A DNA stretch of 40,890 nucleotides from NCBI GenBank assembly GCA_016787295.1, contig JAEUUX010000156.1:1-40890 (forward strand), given 5' to 3'. The notes under the pieces were generated by a model that searched no databases, was not told the DNA's origin, and was given only the letters and a program-made list of their open reading frames with translations. Position 1 is the stretch's first letter, and every line of letters begins with the position of its first letter. Made by a program: the position numbers and the translations under genes. Source of the DNA: Chitinophagales bacterium. Lineage in GTDB: Bacteria; Bacteroidota; Bacteroidia; Chitinophagales; UBA2359. This document shows positions 12,424 to 25,199 of this stretch, piece by piece.

Positions 12424-12530
12424 CTGTTCAACGAACGACCACGCGTTAGGGATTGGAAGGGCAGCCGTTAGGCTGGTGCTTGCACCGTTAGCCCTGCAAA
12501 GCCCGACCCGTAGGGAAACGCCCAAATAAA
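12424..12530 (+). repeat. GC-rich dispersed repeat, copy 2
   Basis: It shares the blocks GCGTTAGGGAT, AGCCCGACCCGTAGGG and ACGCCCAAATAAA with the copy at 321-441, in the same orientation, but is shorter and more diverged in the middle. It begins just after the stop codon of the T9SS cargo gene. Confidence 0.75.
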
Positions 12531-12585: not shown

Positions 12586-13626
12586 ATGCGTCTAACTCCA
12601 CTATCTAAACTATTACTTGTTTTGGCGATTGTTGCCGCCATTTACTTTGCCTTGCGTACTTTTGTCTTAAAAAAAGACACGACAGGCTCTACACCTGCCA
12701 ACACCGAAACAACGGCAAACGGTACCAACACCAATTCTAACTCCACTAACCCTGCCAACGGTGGCGGCAATGCTCCATCGACTAACAATGGTGGCAGTAG
12801 TAGCACCGCAGCAGCGACAACTCCCTCGTTTGACTACACACCACCTGCACCGGTTAATGGCACTTTGCGCGGTGTGGTTGAGTTGGGTGCCTCGGGCTTC
12901 AATTCTTTTGTGGCACGAATGGACAAAGACAAACGTTGGAAAATGGAAAGAAAGGCTTTCGGCGAAAGTTTGGCTATCGAAAATATGGCAACCACCGAAG
13001 ACGTGAAAACTGGTTTGAAGAAATATATTAGCCAGATGTTTAACTTTGGTGTTAGCAACAAAGATATTCATTTTGTAGTCAGCTCAGGTGCTGCCAAATC
13101 ACCCGAAATCGTGAAAATCAGCAATGCTCTCAAAGAGATGAAATATGTGGTCAATGTGGTAACGCCCGAACAAGAAGGACGTTATGCTTTTGCGGCTACC
13201 ATGCCCAAAGATTTCGAAAAAGATGCCTTTGTGGTTGACATTGGTTCGGGTAATACCAAAATTTCTTGGAAAGAAAACGGTGTTGCCAAAGCCTTAGAAG
13301 GGTCAGGTGCTAAATACTTCCAAAGCGGTAAAGATCCACAAACAGTTTATAACGAAATCAAAATGTTGGCGGCGAAAATACCTGCCAGCAACCGCAAAAT
13401 GTGTTTTATCATCGGCGGCGTGCCTTTTGAGTTGGCGAAAAGTCAAGGACAACCGAACGGACGTTATACTACCCTCAAAAAACCTGATGCTTATAGCTTA
13501 GAAGGTGAAAAAAACAAAGCAGGTCTCAACATCTACAAAGCTATTGCTGATGGAACTAAATGCGAGTCTTTCGTATTTGACTGGGATAGTAATTTCACTA
13601 TTGGGTTCTTATTGGGACTTAAATAA
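12586..13626 (+). CDS. Membrane-anchored Ppx/GppA-like (ASKHA fold) protein, paralog 1
   Basis: The 346-residue protein has one transmembrane helix (residues about 8-26), a Thr/Asn/Ser/Gly-rich linker (about 31-85) and a C-terminal domain resembling exopolyphosphatase/GppA phosphatases. GVVELGASGFNSF at 96-108 matches the first phosphate-binding loop, VVSSGAAKSPE matches the TsAlReA region, VVTPEQEGRYAF matches the SGxEEA helix holding the catalytic Glu, and VVDIGSGNTKISW at 216-228 matches the DIGGGSTE loop. Family members hydrolyse polyphosphate or pppGpp. The N-in, C-out topology implied by the linker would place the domain outside the cytoplasm, so activity on those substrates is uncertain. 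It is followed by a paralog 96 bases downstream. Confidence 0.65.
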   Translation: MRLTPLSKLLLVLAIVAAIYFALRTFVLKKDTTGSTPANTETTANGTNTNSNSTNPANGGGNAPSTNNGGSSSTAAATTPSFDYTPPAPVNGTLRGVVELGASGFNSFVARMDKDKRWKMERKAFGESLAIENMATTEDVKTGLKKYISQMFNFGVSNKDIHFVVSSGAAKSPEIVKISNALKEMKYVVNVVTPEQEGRYAFAATMPKDFEKDAFVVDIGSGNTKISWKENGVAKALEGSGAKYFQSGKDPQTVYNEIKMLAAKIPASNRKMCFIIGGVPFELAKSQGQPNGRYTTLKKPDAYSLEGEKNKAGLNIYKAIADGTKCESFVFDWDSNFTIGFLLGLK

Positions 13627-13644
13627 GGCAACTACCTTTATTGA

Positions 13645-13685
13645 AGGAGTGCTTTAGACAAACCTTGTTGTCCTGAAGCACTCCT
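13645..13685 (+). terminator. Hairpin between the two Ppx/GppA-like paralogs
   Basis: AGGAGTGCTT pairs with AAGCACTCCT, and inside them GACAA pairs with TTGTC. A weak T-rich stretch follows. It could be a partial terminator that lowers expression of the second paralog, or an RNA-stability element. Confidence 0.6.
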
Positions 13686-13722
13686 AACTTTCACATTTTT
13701 ATCAACCTAAAAAGTTAGAATC

Positions 13723-14778
13723 ATGCGCCTAACAGGATTTTCTAAATTTTTATTGGTCTTAGCCATTGTATTAGGTTTGTTTTTTGCAGCTAAACGCTTT
13801 ATGCCACAATGGTTCGAAAAAAACAATACCGAAGTAGTAGATACAACAAATGGTGAGACACCTAATACTACTGATTCGAATCCTACCACTACCACCACCG
13901 AAACAACAAGACCTGCTCCTAATGTAGCACCCGCCGAAACGCCCGCTAACGACAATAGCAATAATGCCAGCAGCAATTTTACCTATACAGCGCCCAAACC
14001 GGTCAATGGTAAGTTGCGCGGTGTGGTGGAGTTAGGTGCGTCGGGTTTCAATTCGTTTGTTGTTTTGACAGACCAAGACAAAGCTTGGGAGCTAAAAAAA
14101 TCGGCTTTTGGCGAAAGTTTGGTGTATGAAAACATGGCAACGGAAGACGACATTAGGACAGGTTTGAAAAAATACATCTCCCAAATGTTGAACTTTGGTG
14201 TTTTGCCACGCGATATTCATTTTGTGGTGAGTTCTGCGGCTGCCAACGCGCCCGAAGTAGTGAAGATTACCAAAGCGCTGAAAACCTTGGGTTATGTGGT
14301 CAATACTGTGACCGCAGCCAAAGAAGCAGAATACGGACTGAAAGCCACGCTCACGCGCGATTTTCTGCAAGATGCTTTTATGGTCGACATTGGGTCGGGC
14401 AATACCAAAATTGCTTGGTATGAAGGCAATGCAGTTAAAACGTTGGAAACATACGGCTCAAAATACTTTCAAAAAGGTATTAGCGCCGATGTGGTGCATA
14501 ACGAAATCAAAACCTTAGCCGCCAAAGTGCCTGCTGACAAACAAAAGATGTGCTTTATTATCGGTGGTGTGCCGTTTGATTTAGCAAAAACCCACCGCAA
14601 AGACAAAGAACGTTATACCCTTTTGAAATCGCCTGCTGACTATAGTAGTTTGAGCGGCGAAAAAGTAAAAGCAGGTGTCAATATCTATGACGCTATTGCC
14701 AAAGGCGCACAATGCGACCGTTTTGTCTTTGACTGGGATAGCAATTTTACCATCGGCTTTTTGCTTGACCTAAAATAA
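13723..14778 (+). CDS. Membrane-anchored Ppx/GppA-like protein, paralog 2
   Basis: The 351-residue protein is collinear with its upstream neighbour: transmembrane helix at about 8-26, low-complexity Thr/Asn/Pro linker at about 36-85, and a Ppx/GppA-like domain with GVVELGASGFNSF, VVSSAAANAPEVVKI, AAKEAEYGL and MVDIGSGNTKIAW. Both end in the same motif, FVFDWDSNFTIGFLL. The core domains are highly similar while the linkers differ, so this is a tandem duplication with diverging linkers. The NUDIX gene begins 8 bases after the stop codon, which suggests one operon. Function is inferred only from fold similarity. Confidence 0.65.
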   Translation: MRLTGFSKFLLVLAIVLGLFFAAKRFMPQWFEKNNTEVVDTTNGETPNTTDSNPTTTTTETTRPAPNVAPAETPANDNSNNASSNFTYTAPKPVNGKLRGVVELGASGFNSFVVLTDQDKAWELKKSAFGESLVYENMATEDDIRTGLKKYISQMLNFGVLPRDIHFVVSSAAANAPEVVKITKALKTLGYVVNTVTAAKEAEYGLKATLTRDFLQDAFMVDIGSGNTKIAWYEGNAVKTLETYGSKYFQKGISADVVHNEIKTLAAKVPADKQKMCFIIGGVPFDLAKTHRKDKERYTLLKSPADYSSLSGEKVKAGVNIYDAIAKGAQCDRFVFDWDSNFTIGFLLDLK

Positions 14779-14786
14779 ATCGAACT

Positions 14787-15209
14787 ATGACCTTACAAAG
14801 ATTTTCGGTGCGTGTATATGGTCTCTTGACCAACGAAAAACAGCAAATTTTGGTGAGTCACGAACATTTCGATGGCATTGAGTTGGTGAAATTTGCAGGT
14901 GGCGGGGTGGAATTGGGCGAAGGTATTGTAGCAGCACTTCATCGCGAGTTTAGGGAAGAATGTGACATTACTATTGCTATCCAAGAACACCTATACACGA
15001 CCGAAAATCTCATTATCTCCACTTTCAAACCGCATGTACAAGTTATTTGTGTCTACTATTGGGTCACAACTACCGACCCCATCAACCACCAATTATTGCC
15101 TAATATATACACTGTTTGGCAAGACATCGCCCAAATTTCTGATAATTATTTCAGTTACGAAGGCGAACAATTAGCTTTTTGCACCTTAAAAAAACGATTA
15201 TTGCTTTAA
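14787..15209 (+). CDS. NUDIX hydrolase
   Basis: The 140-residue protein carries a complete Nudix box, GGVELGEGIVAALHREFREE, matching Gx5Ex7REUxEE, so it should hydrolyse a nucleoside diphosphate linked to another group with a divalent metal. The short N-terminal strand region (RFSVRVYGLLTNEKQQILVSHE) is typical for the fold. The substrate cannot be told from the sequence. It starts 8 bases after the second Ppx/GppA-like gene and is probably co-transcribed with it. That would link two nucleotide- or phosphate-handling folds in one operon. Confidence 0.88.
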   Translation: MTLQRFSVRVYGLLTNEKQQILVSHEHFDGIELVKFAGGGVELGEGIVAALHREFREECDITIAIQEHLYTTENLIISTFKPHVQVICVYYWVTTTDPINHQLLPNIYTVWQDIAQISDNYFSYEGEQLAFCTLKKRLLL

Positions 15210-15258: not shown

Positions 15259-16179
15259 ATGGCTAAAAAAAATAAAAACCCTCTCCCTAACTATTTTAAA
15301 TTAATGCGCCCCACCTTACACGCTTTAGTAAAGTTAGGTGGTTCAGGCACCAACGACGAAATTAACGAAACAGTTTACCAAATCTGCCAGTTTTCGGACG
15401 AAGCCTTAACCATACCACATGGTAAAAATGGACTTACTTCCGAGATAGATTATCGCCTATTTTGGACAAGAACATATCTAAAAAAAGCTAACCTCATCCA
15501 AAACTCCTCACGCGGCGTGTGGACTTTGGTAGACTCACACCTACAGCCCGACAAAGTAGACATAGATACCATTGTAAAAAATATTACAGACGAACTAAAG
15601 AAAAATCGTACAGAAATGCCAACATCTGCCGACCAGCAGGATTCCTCCACAGCCAGCGATAATGTTGCTGTCGAGACAGAAGCGGCTTCTTTCGTCATTT
15701 CCGAAGACCCTAGCGAACTAGACTGGAAAGAAAAACTTTTGCAAACCTTACAAAGCATTTCACCCGCTGCCTTCGAACGTTTGGCACAGAGATTGCTGAG
15801 AGAGAGTGGTTTTATCCAAGTCGAAGTGACCGGCAAAAGCAATGATGGCGGCATAGACGGCAAAGGTATTGTGAAAATAAATGGCTTGTTGAGTTTTCAT
15901 ATTATTTTTCAATGCAAACGCTACAAAGGGTCAGTCGGTTCGAGTCAGATTAGGGATTTTCGCGGCGCTATGCAAGGCAGAGCAGATAAAGGAATGATCA
16001 TAACCACAGGCACTTTTACGCGTGAAGCTGTTAAAGAAGCTACACGTCCCGGTGCCGACCCTATCGATCTCATCGACGGAGAACAACTGTGCGATAAATT
16101 GAAAGAACTTGGCTTAGGCGTAAAAACCGTTTTGGTTGAGCAAGTAGAAATACAAAGACAATGGTTTTTGGACATATAG
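15259..16179 (+). CDS. Mrr-family restriction endonuclease
   Basis: The 306-residue protein has an N-terminal Mrr_N winged-helix domain (residues about 8-95, YFKLMRPTLHALVKLGGSGTNDEINE...RLFWTRTYLKKANLI) and a C-terminal Mrr_cat nuclease domain (about 160-300) with FERLAQRLLRESGF, KSNDGGIDGKG and FQCKRYKG. This gives the D...QxK variant of the PD-(D/E)xK site. SSQIRDFRGAM and GMIITTGTFTREA are also family hallmarks. Such enzymes typically cut modified foreign DNA (type IV restriction). I use the ATG at 15259, 18-20 bases after the predicted transcription start. No cognate methylase is adjacent, as expected for this type. Confidence 0.9.
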   Translation: MAKKNKNPLPNYFKLMRPTLHALVKLGGSGTNDEINETVYQICQFSDEALTIPHGKNGLTSEIDYRLFWTRTYLKKANLIQNSSRGVWTLVDSHLQPDKVDIDTIVKNITDELKKNRTEMPTSADQQDSSTASDNVAVETEAASFVISEDPSELDWKEKLLQTLQSISPAAFERLAQRLLRESGFIQVEVTGKSNDGGIDGKGIVKINGLLSFHIIFQCKRYKGSVGSSQIRDFRGAMQGRADKGMIITTGTFTREAVKEATRPGADPIDLIDGEQLCDKLKELGLGVKTVLVEQVEIQRQWFLDI

Positions 16180-17378: not shown

Positions 17379-20300
17379 TCATCGTATCAAACTAACATTA
17401 CCTTTCAAAAACTCTTCTTCACCATTGTCAAAAACAACTTTGACATAAAAGACATATACCCCCAACTCGCACTCCTTACCCGCTTTGTTTTGTCCGTTCC
17501 AGACTTGGGCAGTATCTGTGCTGTTTTTCTCCAACACCACAGTTCCCCAACGGTCATAAATAGCCACTTCATAATGCGAAATATTGTGTCCTTGTAAGAT
17601 AAAAAAGTCGTTGATATTGTCGTTGTTTGGCGAAAAAGCTGTAGGTATAATCAGGCTGTTTAGGTATCGCACTTGCACCAACATAGAGTCGGCGGCTTGG
17701 CATTGCCATTCGTCCGTAACCATTAAGGTATAGGTGTCGGTGCTAGTGATAATAGCAGTAGGAGTAGGGCAGTCGTTGCACGACAAAGCTGTGTTACTGC
17801 TCCACGCATAACTCAATGGGCTATCTACCAAAGTCTGAACAATAGGCTGCCAACTCACCACACTACCCGCCAAAACAGTCGTATCATTACCCACCGAAAC
17901 ACTCACTTGATTGACAAAGAAACTAATCGTATCGCTATAATAACACGACTCCGCACTTTCGGCGGTCACAACAACAGTTTGATTACCCGATACATTGGCA
18001 ATATTACTGAAACTACTACCCACTTCTTGCATACTGCCCCATTGCCACGTATAGACCGTATTACTTGACGGACTGCCGACATTCAGGTTTATGGCATCGC
18101 CTACACACACAGTATCGGGTGCGGTTACTTCAAAAAAAGGCAGGTCTACAATATTGATGGTAGTGTTGGCTGCATAACTACATGCGTTGGCATCGGTATA
18201 GGTGTAGGTGATCGTGTGGCTGCCCACTCCCAAAACCATTGGGTCAAAAATATTACTATTGTTACCAACAAAACTACCACCTGCGGGAATAGGTTGGACG
18301 GTAATAGGGGCTTCATTAATGCACCAGATTGAGTCAAGAATACCCGTGCTAATGGCAATAGTTGGGCAATTATTCGTTACACATTCGGCGGTGCTGGCTT
18401 CGCTATCTCCACACCACAGTCCATCACCCAAGGCTATTAGCTGAACGCTAATACTTTCGTTGGGCAATAAGTTGTTGAGTGTATAACTATTGCTGGTTGT
18501 CAAAATAGTATCATTGTTGTAGATAAACGCATAACCGTTGGCATTTGGGTCGTCGTTCCATGCAAAACTAAGGCTACTTTCGGTGCTGCCATTGCACCAG
18601 ATAGGCGGCGAAGGCAGTGTTCCTGTAACGATGGCGGTAGCTGTGGCAGTGCAGTTATTGGCATCGGTTGCCATGACGCTATAACTTCCAACAGCTAAAT
18701 TATCGACAAACGACGTGTTACCTATTGTGGCATTATCCCAAGAATAGCTAATAGGGGCGGTAGCAAAATCGACATTAGTGGCGACACTGCCGAACTCCTG
18801 CCCACAAATTGTTGTTTCGCTGCTGATAGTCATGCTTATCGGTTGAGAACCAGCTACTTCAAAAGGGACAATTAAACTACAGTTGTTACTATCTGTAACA
18901 GTAACAGTATAGTTACCTTCAGCTATGTTGTTGAGCGTTGAGCCAGATTCTCCTGCTACTGACCAAACATAATTTACAACTAATGGACTATTAATTACCA
19001 ACGATATAGCTCCGTTATTCTGTCCACAAGTCGTGGGGGTGACATTGGAGTTGTTAAGCGTTGGTACATTGTCAGCACTAACGGTTGCGGTTGCGGTTGC
19101 GGTACAAGCATTGGAATCGGAGACGGTGAGGATATAAGTGCCTATGCCTACATCAACAGGATTGGCTCCCATCAAATTATTGTCTGACCAAATGTAGGTG
19201 AGTGGTAAAGGACTATCTACTATGGTGCTAATCGTGCCATTGTTTTGCCCACAAGTGGCATTGGTGGTCGTAATGGCGCTGATAGTTGGCGGTGTTTCGG
19301 CAGTAATAGTCAGGCTGATGGTAGCGCTACAATCGGCTGCATCGGTAACAGTTACCACATAATTATTAGGAGCTAAGTTGTTGGCAATACTATCGTTGCT
19401 CACCCCTTGACTCCATGTCCAGTTAAAAGGAGCCGTTCCATTGCCCACGATTATGCTAACCGCGCCATTGTTTTGACTGCATGTAGCTGGGCTAAGATTA
19501 TTAATGCTCAAAGTGGGTGTATTGGTGGTTGTTACTTCGGCGCTGGCTATGCTTTGGCAGTTATTGGCATCGCTTACTGTTACAAAATAGATAGCAGGCA
19601 ACAAATTGCTGGCAGTAGCGTTGTTGCTCACCCCATCAGTCCAAGTATAGGACAAATTACCCACACCACCTGTTACGCTTATACTTATAGCGCCATTATT
19701 ATTGCTACAAGTAGAAGGTTGTACATTTTGCACGCTAATACTTGGCGCTCCTTCGTTGCCAATAGCCAAAGTCAAAGTTGCGCTACATTGTGTATTATCC
19801 GTAACGGTGACATTATAAGTTCCTGCGGCTAAATTATTGGCAGTTTCGTTGTTACCATTGGGTGTATCCCAAACAAAACTATAAGCTGTGCCGCTGCCGT
19901 CAGCCGCCGCCACACTAACACTACCATTGCTTTGTCCGCAATTGGCATTCACTAACGAAACAACAGATAGGGTAGGAGAGGAGGTGCTATTGATTTGGAA
20001 ACTTTGCGAGGCACTACAGCTATTATCGTCAGTAACAGTAAGGGTATATGTACCTGCCGACAAATTGGTGATGTTTGCGGTATCATAACCATTGTTCCAA
20101 CTATATTGCAAGTTGCCCGTTCCGCCTATAACTTCGGTGCTAATACTGCCATTGCCTAAACCGCAATTTTCGTCTGTGAGAGTCGCATTATTGATAATGG
20201 GTGCATCAGCAGCGGCAATATTGGTGGTGACAGTTGCACTACATTGCTCCGTATTGGTCACAGTGACGCTGTAGGTATTGGAGCAAAGGTCGATTATGTC

Positions 20301-23300
20301 CGCCAGCATCGCTCCATTGTTCCAGCTATAGGTATAAGAGTCGTTGGAAGTGGGATTGTTGATAGTTATGCCTAATTGTCCGTTACATTGTCCGCAAGTG
20401 GGGTTTATAGTTGTGCCAAAAGCAATGCTCAAAGGTTCGGAGTCGGCTATGACAAAACTTGCTGTGGTGGTACATTGTGCATTGTCCGTAATTGTCACCG
20501 TATAAGTATCGGCACAAAGGTTGGTGCGAAGGTCGGTGGTATTGCCGTCGTTCCAAAGATAGGAGAGGGGTTGTTGGGTGCTATTGATAGTATAATTGAT
20601 ACTGCCATTACACACTCCGCAAGTGGTTGGAATGACATTGCTGTTCTCCACAAGTGGCAAAGCAGTACCCGTGATATTTTGCGAAGCCGTTGCGCTACAT
20701 TGTTGGCTGTCGGTGATGGTGAGCGTGTAATTGCCTTCGGCGAGTTGGTCTTGTGTCCATGTATCGTTGGGGCTTTGCCATTGGTAAGGCGGCGTACCAC
20801 CACTGATAGTCCATGTAATTGCGCCATTGCTTTGTCCGCAAGTGCTGTTTTCTACATTAGCCACAATTATTTGCGGCGAAGCAGTGCCTACAATCTCAAA
20901 ACTTTCGATAGCTTGGCAATTAGCAGCATCTGTAGCAGTGACACTATACACACCATTAGACAAATTTTGCAAAGTGTTGCTATTGCTGTCATTGCTCCAT
21001 AACAGTGTGATATTGCCCGTCCCGCCGGTGGCGCTAATGCTTAAACTAGCATTCGCATTGCCGCAAGTGGTATTTTGTTGGTTGAGCAAACTAATACTTG
21101 GTGCATTGTTGTTGGCAACCGCAACGGTGGTGCTGGCAGTACAATTATTGCTATCCGATACCGTTACGGTATAGACTCCTGCCAATAGGTTTTGCGGATT
21201 ATTGGTGTTGGGAGCGGCATTGCTCCAGACGTAATTGTAAGGTTGCGTTCCACCATTGGCAGTCAATTGTATCTGCCCATTATTGGCATTACAAGTAGCA
21301 TTGGTGGAAGTGGCAGAAAGGTTTATGGCGGTCGGTTGATTGAGGATATAAGAAGCTGTAGCCGTACATTGATTAGCATCGGACACAGTTACGCTATAAG
21401 TTTGTGCCGAAAGATTAACAACATTAGCACTAATATTGCCATTATTCCACAAAAAAGCATAAGGAGCATTTCCGCCTATGACAGACAAATTAATGCTGCC
21501 TGTATTAGCGCCATTACACACAATAGGCACAACCGTATCATCAATTTGCAGCGCATTGGGCGAACTAAGGCTAATAGCAAGGCTTTGTGAACAATTATTT
21601 TGGTCAGTGACCGTCACAGTATATGTTTGTGCTACCAAATTGTTGAGGTTGGTATTGGTAGCAGCATTGTTCCATGCAAAACTATAAGGTATTGTACCAC
21701 CATTAGCGTTGATATTGATTTGTCCGTTATTAGCGCCAAAACAAGTCAGATTTTGGTGTTGTTCGCTCAAAGATAAAGCCATTGGCGCAACCAAAGTGGC
21801 GCTAATAGTTGCGCTACATTGATTACTATCGCTAACGGTTACGGTATAAGTGCCAGCAGTTAAGTTAGTCGGATTTTGTTGATTTCCTATTGTGGCATTA
21901 TTCCAAGCAAAAGTATAAGGTGCATTACCATTAGTAACACTAATAGCAATACTGCCATTGTTTTGTCCTGCACAAGCTGGAGATATAGCAGTAGCACTCA
22001 AAACCAATGCAGCATTAGCGCTAACGGTCACGCTTTGGGTGGCGGTGCAGTTGCCTGCATCAGATACTGTTACGGTATAAACGCCTGCGGGAACGTTAGA
22101 AAGATTAGCTATTTCGGGCAAGCCATTTCCCCAAAAGAAGTTGTAGGGAGAAGTACCACCGCTGGAGCTGGCAGCGAGGTTGGCAGTAGTACTATTGCAA
22201 GCGGCTTGTTGAACAGATATATTAGCTGTGAGTGCAGTAGGAGCAGCAATTACCATTTCGCTTGTTTGAGAACAACCTATGGCATCGGTTACAGTCACGC
22301 TATAGGTGTCGGCGGCAAGACCTATCAAATTGTTGCCTTGCAAGGTGTTGTCATTCCAAACATAACTAAAAGGAGTTGTGCCACCTACGGGTAGTATGCT
22401 AATGCTACCTGTCGCTTCGTTGGCACAAAATAAATCAAAAGCACTAATTTCGAGTCCAAAACTATCGTTTTGAATAGTAACAGAGGCGGTCGCTGTACAA
22501 GCATTGATGTCCGTGACGGTGAGGGTATAAGTACCTGTTATGCTGGTGTTAATGCAATTATCTACCTGTCCTGAACTCCATTCATAGTTAACAAAAGGAC
22601 TTTGGGAACATAAAGTAGTGCTAGTATTTTCACAAATCAAAGTTTGACCTGTGATGTTGGTGTTGGGAGCGGGATAGTTAGTAACAACAACTGTTGTTTG
22701 GCTACTACAATTATTGGCATCGGTCACTAGTACGTCATAGCTATCAGCGCCAAGATTATTAAGCAGGATATTGTTGGTATTTTGTTGTCCTGTAGACCAA
22801 GTATAAGGCAGCGTTCCACCATTGGCAGATAATGCCAAACTACCTTCGTTGAGATTGGGGCAGGTAGCTACCAAATCTTCGAGATGGATTTGTAGGGCAG
22901 AGGGAGCGGTAAGGGTGGCTTGAGTAGTAGCAGTGCAGTTATTGGCATCAGTAATCGTGACGGTATAAGTATTGGCGGGTAAGTTGTTAGCGATGTCTGT
23001 ATTCCCAACGCTGGTATTGCTCCATTGATAACTATAAGGCAAAGAACCGTTGATAGGTACAGCCTGTATACTGCCATTGGAACCAAAACAAAGTGCATTC
23101 GTGGCAGTGGCAGTAGCGGATAAATTGCTCACCGAAATAGTAGCAGACCCAAAAACATTGCCCACACAGCCATTAGCATCGCTAACACTCACCACATTGT
23201 AGGTGCCAGTATTGCCCGATATATTAAAAACAGCATTTGGATTATTGATAGTAATGTTGTTTTGAGTAGTATTGTTAATGGTATAACCTACCTGCCAAGG

Positions 23301-25199
23301 TCCCACGCCTGTAAGACTTGTTTGTAGCGGAATTGCCTGACCAGCGTTGCAGATAGTACCACCACCACTCAAGGTAATAGTTGGTACAGGATTGACCGTA
23401 ATGGTCAAATCATCGCTACCACCACAACTGCCCGCTATAGTATATGTAACAATGTAGGGTGGTGGGCTTTGGGCAGCCAGCACAGGGTCAAACTGTCCCG
23501 TAGTGTTGGTGCCTCCCACAATACCGCTACCCGACCACACGCCATTAGGTTTGTTGGCAGTCAATACCAAAGGCGAGCCGTTGGCACACTGCACAGGAAT
23601 AGGGTTGATAACAATAGGTATTGGGGTATCCACAACGATAGTAATTTGGTCACTATCAGACCCACAATTATTGCTAACATTATAACTAATAGTATAGTTG
23701 CCGGCATTGAGATTGGTGGGATTAAACACACCTGTTGTCGGGTTGACTCCTGTGCCACTAAATGTACCTCCTTCTGTTGCCACTTCCAAAGTAATAGCAC
23801 CATCAGCACTACACAAGGGCGGCACATCGCTAATATCGGCAGTAGGCGGCACATTGTCAACCGTAACATTCACCACTTGTGTAATGCTGCGCCCACAAGC
23901 ATCAGTAACTGTAACACTATAGGAAGTGTTAACAGCAGGAGCAACAGGAATGATGGGACCCGAAGCTCCGTTGCTCCATTCGTAAGTATAAGGCTGAAAT
24001 TGGCTACCACCTGCAATAATAGCAATTAATGCACCCGACCCTGGACAAATAGTAGGGTCACTACTGCTGGCAGCTTCAAAAATTTCAGGACTATCATAGA
24101 TGACAAGTGTGTCGGGTGTGGGTTGTTGGCAGTTGCATAAAAACATATCGGGCGTGACAATAATGCTTTCCTCGCCTTCGGAAAACAAATCGCTATAAGC
24201 AATAATAGGTAGAATAACAGAAGTATCCCCTGCTTGAATAACGGCTTGATTCGGCAAGGCATCATAGTCGACATTGGGTTGTGCTGTGCCGTCAATGAGG
24301 AGCGGAATAACCAAAGGTTCAGATAAATCACTGTCGGAAGGGCGCGTGAAAATAAAATACCCATCTTGACACCCTTCGTAAGCAGCAGCGGAGTTTGTGC
24401 TGGGAACAAAGGCTTGAACAGCAATGGATTGCCCCGCATTGAAACTATTGGCAGCCAAAAAAACAGCAGAGTCATAAGCCGCATCACCTGCATCAGCTAA
24501 AGCTAATTTGATGTGATAGGATTGGCAAGGGGTAAGTCCTTCCATAACAGCCGTTAGGACTTTGGTATAACCATCATATTGAGTTGTTGTGCCAATGTTG
24601 GGTGTATAGTATTGGGAGTTGGTAATGGCATTGATAGTATTGATGGTAATGGGCGTTGTCGTACCGGGAACAAGGGCAATATTTTGCTGACCCGCAATGC
24701 CAGGACCAGACACAAAAAAACCAAATACATCATTAAAAGTAGTGCCAACGAATTCGGGATATTCTTCGGAAGCAAAAATAAAGTCAAACGAAACAGAACT
24801 ACTAAGGGGTAAAAAATCAAACTCAATAATGGCAGCATCTTGGGTAGTGCTACCGGGTAGTGCATTGAGGTCGGCATCGCCCGCGCCAAAATAACTCGTA
24901 TTTGCAAAGCTATTGGGCAAGCCTCCCGCTTGGTTAACATTGCCCGATGAAAGGATAATGCCTTCTGTAATGCCAATAGGAGTAGCATTATTAAAATACC
25001 CTATGCTATTGGCGTTGCCTGAATAGGTGATATTGTTCACTGTCAAACAACCTCCTACCAATACATTTTGCACCAAATAAGACACATTGCCATTATTGCC
25101 CACATTGGACACATTAAGGGATTGCGCCACAGCGGTATGACTCCTATAACAAAGTAAAAAAGTTAGTAAAAGGTAGCAATAAGGATACACTGACTTCAT
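17379..25199 (-). CDS. Giant SprB-repeat adhesin-like protein with choice-of-anchor L domain and T9SS type B sorting domain
   Basis: The 2606-residue protein starts with a signal peptide ending TAVAQ. An N-terminal choice-of-anchor L domain follows (about 30-270, with FDFIFASEEYPEFVG and FNDVFGFFVSGPG). Then come PKD-like units and about 20 SprB-type repeats of 75-80 residues. Each repeat runs from a Cys near its start (TCGQNNGxI) to LxAGTYTVTVTDxNxCTA, so each probably has one disulfide. A fibronectin-like unit and two more beta domains precede the C-terminal gliding-type T9SS B domain (IIPTAFSPNNDNINDFFIL...YDRWGTVVLE...GVYVFYVKV). SprB-repeat proteins are surface adhesins, in some species moved by the gliding machinery. 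A -7 element at 25258-25266 lies 58 bases upstream. It is monocistronic. Confidence 0.9.
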   Translation of the reverse strand: MKSVYPYCYLLLTFLLCYRSHTAVAQSLNVSNVGNNGNVSYLVQNVLVGGCLTVNNITYSGNANSIGYFNNATPIGITEGIILSSGNVNQAGGLPNSFANTSYFGAGDADLNALPGSTTQDAAIIEFDFLPLSSSVSFDFIFASEEYPEFVGTTFNDVFGFFVSGPGIAGQQNIALVPGTTTPITINTINAITNSQYYTPNIGTTTQYDGYTKVLTAVMEGLTPCQSYHIKLALADAGDAAYDSAVFLAANSFNAGQSIAVQAFVPSTNSAAAYEGCQDGYFIFTRPSDSDLSEPLVIPLLIDGTAQPNVDYDALPNQAVIQAGDTSVILPIIAYSDLFSEGEESIIVTPDMFLCNCQQPTPDTLVIYDSPEIFEAASSSDPTICPGSGALIAIIAGGSQFQPYTYEWSNGASGPIIPVAPAVNTSYSVTVTDACGRSITQVVNVTVDNVPPTADISDVPPLCSADGAITLEVATEGGTFSGTGVNPTTGVFNPTNLNAGNYTISYNVSNNCGSDSDQITIVVDTPIPIVINPIPVQCANGSPLVLTANKPNGVWSGSGIVGGTNTTGQFDPVLAAQSPPPYIVTYTIAGSCGGSDDLTITVNPVPTITLSGGGTICNAGQAIPLQTSLTGVGPWQVGYTINNTTQNNITINNPNAVFNISGNTGTYNVVSVSDANGCVGNVFGSATISVSNLSATATATNALCFGSNGSIQAVPINGSLPYSYQWSNTSVGNTDIANNLPANTYTVTITDANNCTATTQATLTAPSALQIHLEDLVATCPNLNEGSLALSANGGTLPYTWSTGQQNTNNILLNNLGADSYDVLVTDANNCSSQTTVVVTNYPAPNTNITGQTLICENTSTTLCSQSPFVNYEWSSGQVDNCINTSITGTYTLTVTDINACTATASVTIQNDSFGLEISAFDLFCANEATGSISILPVGGTTPFSYVWNDNTLQGNNLIGLAADTYSVTVTDAIGCSQTSEMVIAAPTALTANISVQQAACNSTTANLAASSSGGTSPYNFFWGNGLPEIANLSNVPAGVYTVTVSDAGNCTATQSVTVSANAALVLSATAISPACAGQNNGSIAISVTNGNAPYTFAWNNATIGNQQNPTNLTAGTYTVTVSDSNQCSATISATLVAPMALSLSEQHQNLTCFGANNGQININANGGTIPYSFAWNNAATNTNLNNLVAQTYTVTVTDQNNCSQSLAISLSSPNALQIDDTVVPIVCNGANTGSINLSVIGGNAPYAFLWNNGNISANVVNLSAQTYSVTVSDANQCTATASYILNQPTAINLSATSTNATCNANNGQIQLTANGGTQPYNYVWSNAAPNTNNPQNLLAGVYTVTVSDSNNCTASTTVAVANNNAPSISLLNQQNTTCGNANASLSISATGGTGNITLLWSNDSNSNTLQNLSNGVYSVTATDAANCQAIESFEIVGTASPQIIVANVENSTCGQSNGAITWTISGGTPPYQWQSPNDTWTQDQLAEGNYTLTITDSQQCSATASQNITGTALPLVENSNVIPTTCGVCNGSINYTINSTQQPLSYLWNDGNTTDLRTNLCADTYTVTITDNAQCTTTASFVIADSEPLSIAFGTTINPTCGQCNGQLGITINNPTSNDSYTYSWNNGAMLADIIDLCSNTYSVTVTNTEQCSATVTTNIAAADAPIINNATLTDENCGLGNGSISTEVIGGTGNLQYSWNNGYDTANITNLSAGTYTLTVTDDNSCSASQSFQINSTSSPTLSVVSLVNANCGQSNGSVSVAAADGSGTAYSFVWDTPNGNNETANNLAAGTYNVTVTDNTQCSATLTLAIGNEGAPSISVQNVQPSTCSNNNGAISISVTGGVGNLSYTWTDGVSNNATASNLLPAIYFVTVSDANNCQSIASAEVTTTNTPTLSINNLSPATCSQNNGAVSIIVGNGTAPFNWTWSQGVSNDSIANNLAPNNYVVTVTDAADCSATISLTITAETPPTISAITTTNATCGQNNGTISTIVDSPLPLTYIWSDNNLMGANPVDVGIGTYILTVSDSNACTATATATVSADNVPTLNNSNVTPTTCGQNNGAISLVINSPLVVNYVWSVAGESGSTLNNIAEGNYTVTVTDSNNCSLIVPFEVAGSQPISMTISSETTICGQEFGSVATNVDFATAPISYSWDNATIGNTSFVDNLAVGSYSVMATDANNCTATATAIVTGTLPSPPIWCNGSTESSLSFAWNDDPNANGYAFIYNNDTILTTSNSYTLNNLLPNESISVQLIALGDGLWCGDSEASTAECVTNNCPTIAISTGILDSIWCINEAPITVQPIPAGGSFVGNNSNIFDPMVLGVGSHTITYTYTDANACSYAANTTINIVDLPFFEVTAPDTVCVGDAINLNVGSPSSNTVYTWQWGSMQEVGSSFSNIANVSGNQTVVVTAESAESCYYSDTISFFVNQVSVSVGNDTTVLAGSVVSWQPIVQTLVDSPLSYAWSSNTALSCNDCPTPTAIITSTDTYTLMVTDEWQCQAADSMLVQVRYLNSLIIPTAFSPNNDNINDFFILQGHNISHYEVAIYDRWGTVVLEKNSTDTAQVWNGQNKAGKECELGVYVFYVKVVFDNGEEEFLKGNVSLIR

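Follow-up and report, generated by a model that had tools for sequence, protein, structure and literature searches.

What does a domain of the Ppx/GppA type do when it is placed on a membrane anchor, and do its neighbours take part in its function? The question is raised by a 40,890-nucleotide stretch of a Chitinophagales bacterium (GenBank assembly GCA_016787295.1, contig JAEUUX010000156.1, positions 1 to 40,890 of the forward strand; hereafter the window). Two genes stand there in tandem on the plus strand, copy A at 12586..13626 (346 amino acids) and copy B at 13723..14778 (351 amino acids), and a NUDIX hydrolase gene (14787..15209, plus strand) starts 8 bases past the end of copy B. A previous description made from the letters alone (the sequence-only reading) had reported these three open reading frames (ORFs) in this arrangement with the motifs quoted below, and all of this was found as described; it had also proposed that the three genes form an operon with a nucleotide- or polyphosphate-linked envelope function. 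Known Ppx/GppA proteins act in the cytoplasm, as enzymes that handle polyphosphate and (p)ppGpp. The explanation that we favour, with some hesitation, is that the two proteins are periplasmic receptors of a phosphoryl ligand coupled to a PspA-like module. The NUDIX gene is a neighbour whose place beside the pair is not conserved.

The AlphaFold2 model of copy A, built on an alignment of 47 rows, reached a mean predicted local distance difference test score (pLDDT) of 82.9, with 212 of the 346 residues at 90 or above. It consists of one helix, the N-terminal anchor (residues 5-31; 12598..12678, plus strand as are all features of the two genes), a low-complexity disordered linker (residues 32-83; 12679..12834; pLDDT below 50 at residues 31-76) and a compact actin-like core (residues 84-346; 12835..13623). 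The tether of one helix and a linker was thus correctly recognized in the sequence-only reading. In the Foldseek search of this model, ranks 1-36 were all Ppx/GppA proteins, followed mainly by nucleoside triphosphate diphosphohydrolases (NTPDases). Structural realignment to the H. pylori PPX/GppA protein (6pc0_A) gave a Z score of 22.2 over 247 residues at 3.3 Å, whereas the NTPDases scored about 18. In sequence, the Pfam model Ppx-GppA (PF02541) gave 21.9 and 21.3 bits for copies A and B against a curated cut-off of 27, matched 38 of the 47 family rows at an E value of 0.01 and reached 27.2 bits in one relative (L024). The source genome contains two further Ppx/GppA genes that do exceed the Pfam cut-off (contigs C202 and C187). 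An hhalign comparison of the family with these two ordinary proteins returned a probability of 39% with a template of only two rows, and its residue pairing was used only because a second profile alignment gave the same pairing. Judging from the predicted structure, both proteins belong to the two-lobed, actin-like Ppx/GppA fold, as the sequence-only reading had expected.

The active site of this fold has been dissected in DrPPX. According to PMC11234463, D7, E114, D136 and E143 are its conserved acidic residues, replacement of each by alanine lowers kcat from 38 to 1.8-4.5 per second (about tenfold for E143), and D7 is the Mg-binding aspartate. The profile alignments pair E114 with E197 of copy A (13174..13176), D136 with D218 and E143 with K225, and D7 was paired with E99 by the motif and the start of the structural alignments. 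E99, E197, D218 and K225 are each present in 47/47 rows, so that two of the four acidic residues are kept, one is glutamate in place of aspartate and one is lysine. In phosphate loop 1 (ELGASGFN, residues 99-106; 12880..12903) E99, G101, A102, G104 and N106 are equally invariant, as are D218, S221, N223 and K225 in phosphate loop 2 (DIGSGNTK, residues 218-225; 13237..13260). T10, S12 and H14 of PPX loop 1, a loop matched by the motif and the alignment start, are replaced by Ala, Gly and Asn. The altered phosphate loops noted in the sequence-only reading were confirmed. An active site that is reworked and yet strictly kept suggests a phosphoryl-ligand site in which catalysis has been changed or lost.

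The same residues may also be read as those of an enzyme. Much as NTPDases of this superfamily do, a periplasmic phosphohydrolase could work on the far side of the inner membrane and cleave polyphosphate, nucleotides or alarmones, either to salvage phosphate or to remove a signal. The invariant E197 and D218, the equivalents of catalytic E114 and D136, and the NTPDases as the next fold matches speak for such an enzyme. The lysine at the E143 position, the glutamate in place of the Mg-binding aspartate and the three exchanges in loop 1 argue in the other direction, and we regard a hydrolase as somewhat unlikely. The opposite extreme, a pseudoenzyme that no longer binds a ligand and whose fold serves to bind proteins in the envelope, would account for the replacement of several ligand-contacting PPX residues and for a tether similar to one found in another envelope protein. 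A pocket no longer in use would be expected to drift, but the pocket residues are invariant in all 47 rows, and the E-x-G and DxGSGNxK motifs recur in a second exported group of proteins; such a scaffold is therefore doubtful.

The receptor that we favour presupposes a domain outside the cytoplasm, for which two kinds of relatives provide evidence. Two genomes from a single genus of the class (L168 and L169) each carry two copies, about 5 kb apart and without the anchor; aligned with the core of copy A over 267-281 residues, these copies show 44-51% identity. These ORFs begin with a short hydrophobic stretch ending in Cys and are lipoprotein-like in this respect. A lipobox pattern fitted two of these four ORFs and L021, none of the 47 anchored rows and none of the 13 rows of the second exported group. 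The two-copy arrangement in L168 and L169 is independent of the pair in the window. The second exported group (L152-L163 and L012, from genomes of the order) combines starts that look Sec-like by eye with a Ppx-like domain; a profile comparison connected it with the family at 98% probability (E 2.6e-13), and tetratricopeptide repeats (TPRs) were detected in 8 of its 13 rows with the most frequent TPR model.

The anchor itself provides the other kind of evidence. At least 59 long ORFs match the family profile with nothing but their first 30-90 residues, and those that were read proved to be substrate-binding/OmpA proteins, according to Pfam (L013/L142), BLAST to that protein (L060) or appearance (L143). 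Domains of the substrate-binding/OmpA type work in the periplasm, and an anchor common to such proteins argues for an extracytoplasmic location. Together with the lipoprotein-like relatives, it makes it very probable that the Ppx/GppA-fold domain lies outside the cytoplasm, in line with the envelope location put forward in the sequence-only reading. A membrane-anchored protein with its domain facing the cytoplasm, where known Ppx/GppA proteins act, is very improbable in view of these relatives and of the Sec-like starts of the second group, although basic residues flank the helix on both sides and charge alone does not fix the topology.

The partner proposed for the domain comes from gene order in relatives. 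A genome-wide scan confirmed 417 relatives, of which the best 80 loci were compared. In 55 of them a gene resembling that of the membrane-protection protein PspA (PspA-like) is found upstream in the same orientation, directly in 53, about 1 kb off in L052 and beyond substrate-binding/OmpA, permease and ATPase genes in L060. This neighbour was found in 16 of the 17 named genera (in Emticicia at 4 of 5 loci). In a quick tree, the locus assigned to Flavobacterium sp. SUN052 clusters with Rudanella, and this name may be wrong. On the same strand, 53/80 loci also have a gene for a coiled-coil protein of about 240 residues, and in 34/80 a small gene follows, one member of which had no Pfam match. 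In genome G015 (L142) the coiled-coil and PspA-like genes precede genes for a substrate-binding/OmpA protein, a permease and an ATPase, and it is the slot of the substrate-binding/OmpA protein that the Ppx/GppA-fold gene takes in many loci. Emticicia sp. BO119 has both heads within one gene row, and their anchors agree at 35 of 42 residues. Among the 59 listed anchor-only matches, at least 35 lie within 500 bases of a listed PspA-like match, two are 884 and 1641 bases away and 22 have no listed PspA-like partner on their contig.

The source genome (296 contigs, 98% complete) has its PspA-like gene on contig C142, out of sight of the sequence-only reading for that reason, and a coiled-coil gene is present there as well; the PspA-like protein is 66% identical to that of G015. 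A 660-residue gene matching the PADLOC model Orf5 (645.9 bits) stands between the two (L141:9116-11098), and in L142 and L143 the coiled-coil and PspA-like genes adjoin without an Orf5-type gene. When the substrate-binding/OmpA protein was used as a query in the source genome, only OmpA parts and the two window anchors were matched; a 455-residue OmpA-type frame that matched the start of the query weakly (E 0.56) had no substrate-binding part.

In the mechanism that we tentatively prefer, the two proteins would belong to an exported Ppx/GppA-fold branch of the Bacteroidota. Each protein would be held in the inner membrane by its one helix, and the linker of about 50 residues would let the two-lobed domain extend into the periplasm. 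There a phosphoryl ligand, be it polyphosphate, pyrophosphate or a nucleotide, would most likely be bound in the interlobe cleft, and the domain would act as a receptor rather than an enzyme. Closure of the lobes driven by the ligand might then be passed, by contact, to the PspA-like membrane protein, whose gene lies upstream in many relatives but on contig C142 in the source genome. The Ppx/GppA-fold domain would then stand in as a head for the substrate-binding/OmpA protein, which has a similar anchor and operon slot. We consider a more specific version unlikely: the exported receptor would read a periplasmic phosphorylated compound, swap with the solute-binding/OmpA head and drive PspA/ESCRT-III-like membrane repair from outside. 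Its ligand, at that same low probability, would be polyphosphate or nucleotides leaking through damaged membranes.

Several observations weigh against a coupling to the PspA-like protein. The sample of loci is uneven, with 44/80 from Spirosomataceae or Cytophagaceae, and the PspA-like link was seen in none of the 13 Saprospiraceae, two Arcicella and one Lewinellaceae loci. L098 (Segetibacter) was counted by means of its own gene as the query, the other two queries giving E 0.001, and without it the link stands at 54 loci and 15 genera. In the source genome the Ppx-like and PspA-like genes are unlinked, and 10 of the 48 family-bearing genomes of the order have no PspA-like gene at E 1e-10. The co-occurrence within the order (a PspA-like gene in 38/48 family genomes vs 155/396) is largely explained by family-level ancestry and is not counted as independent support. 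The PspA label itself is provisional: PF04012 stays below its cut-off (4/13 members), the model of the PspA-like protein has a pLDDT of 61, nine of the top 12 Foldseek rows for this model are Vipp1 with none at E 0.001. A comparison of the PspA-like alignment with the sequences of solved structures gave nothing below E 0.08.

The pair in the window is a duplication of this lineage. Copies A and B are 56% identical over the BLAST alignment and are sisters in a quick tree with a Shimodaira-Hasegawa-like approximate likelihood ratio test support of 95. Full-length family matches at E 1e-100 or better were found in 48 of the 396 genomes of the order sample, the source genome included, and among the matches listed it is the only genome with two. 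Beyond the order the family is patchy, since 8/395 genomes of a phylum sample had a match at E 1e-20, a number that includes the source genome and two others of the order. Identity between the copies differs by region, with 172/263 aligned residues in the core, 16/48 in the linker and 16/30 in the anchor. The divergence of the linkers stated in the sequence-only reading was therefore confirmed, whereas its "near-identical" holds for the core motifs and not for the core as a whole. No conservation of the pair in relatives was seen, with a second family copy in 0/80 loci.

The intergenic space between the copies contains a hairpin (13645..13685, plus strand) of 17 pairs with -24.2 kcal/mol and a z score of -6.0 for a 56-base stretch; it has no T-run directly 3'. 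With this hairpin between the copies, a single transcript through both genes and the NUDIX gene is not assured. Counts in a promoter/terminator scan were near the shuffled mean and were not used. The window gave no Rfam match at gathering scores and no tRNA. A dispersed repeat of about 85-95 bases lies just 5' of copy A (12442-12528); 40 matches to it, with 82-100% identity and the window's own counted, were scored among 232 candidates in the source genome.

The NUDIX domain is genuine (PF00293, 39.7 bits vs a cut-off of 21.1). In tblastn at E 1e-5, none of the 80 loci, nine of which are shorter than 8 kb, had a match to the window NUDIX, and in seven relatives whose ORF lists were inspected by eye (three of these genomes recur among the 80 loci) the gene is single and no NUDIX gene was recognized alongside. 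A Nudix-box pattern was rejected as evidence, as it fails even on the window's own NUDIX, and the count rests on tblastn. At E 1e-10, NUDIX relatives occur in 29 of 60 searched genomes, the source genome counted; G005, G016, G018 and G034 hold a Ppx-like gene together with such a relative, on different contigs of these draft assemblies in 4/4 cases. The link is incidental, and a conserved NUDIX partnership, as claimed in the sequence-only reading, was rejected. That the pair and the NUDIX gene, despite the same strand and the 8-base spacing, work together as a single operon in the turnover of nucleotides or polyphosphate is barely credible given these counts, the absence of second copies and the hairpin.

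Downstream of the NUDIX gene, on the same strand, an Mrr-type restriction endonuclease gene was found (15259-16179; PF04471, 109.8 bits). It is a separate neighbour. A role of the pair in anti-phage defence was rejected, a PADLOC scan with copy A having given no match at E 0.01. A 2606-residue ORF on the minus strand (17379-25199) is composed of repeated modules and resembles, by eye, a surface protein whose C-terminus is of the gliding type.

The Ppx/GppA fold is known, and NTPDases are a known case of the superfamily fold being used outside the cytoplasm. Searches of the PMC literature under open licence turned up no exported branch of the Ppx/GppA type with PspA-like genes nearby. If such a branch exists, a phosphoryl-ligand domain would be at work in a place normally poor in these ligands. 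Because it recurs next to PspA-like genes, where other loci have the substrate-binding/OmpA protein, it raises a testable question for PspA-type systems outside Proteobacteria, namely whether they sense anything on the outer face of the membrane and, if so, what.

Comparison with the known systems gives the following picture. The window proteins share with the Ppx/GppA phosphatases the two-lobed fold across the whole core and the equivalents of E114 and D136. They differ in being anchored and most likely exported, in a shorter core with a Pfam score below the cut-off and in the lysine and glutamate at the places of E143 and of the Mg-binding aspartate. The NTPDases (ectonucleotidases, e.g. Legionella NTPDase1 and CD39) have the same superfamily fold, but their fold match is lower than that of Ppx/GppA and none of them was among the PDB sequence hits at E 1. 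The second exported group resembles the family in the E-x-G of loop 1, SSG near helix 1, Q/E-E before lobe 2 and D[IV]GSGN[TS]K, whereas it has no membrane helix beyond the signal, is longer (370-510 amino acids) and in many members carries TPRs. Ravi et al. (PMC11237479), whose main text does not contain the term Ppx, described PspA/Snf7 operons that combine an AAA ATPase with ABC parts and a PBPB-OmpA protein. In L142 and L060, PspA-like and substrate-binding/OmpA genes stand in a row with permease and ATPase genes, much as in these operons, whereas in many of the loci analysed here the third slot is taken by a Ppx/GppA-fold protein with a similar anchor.

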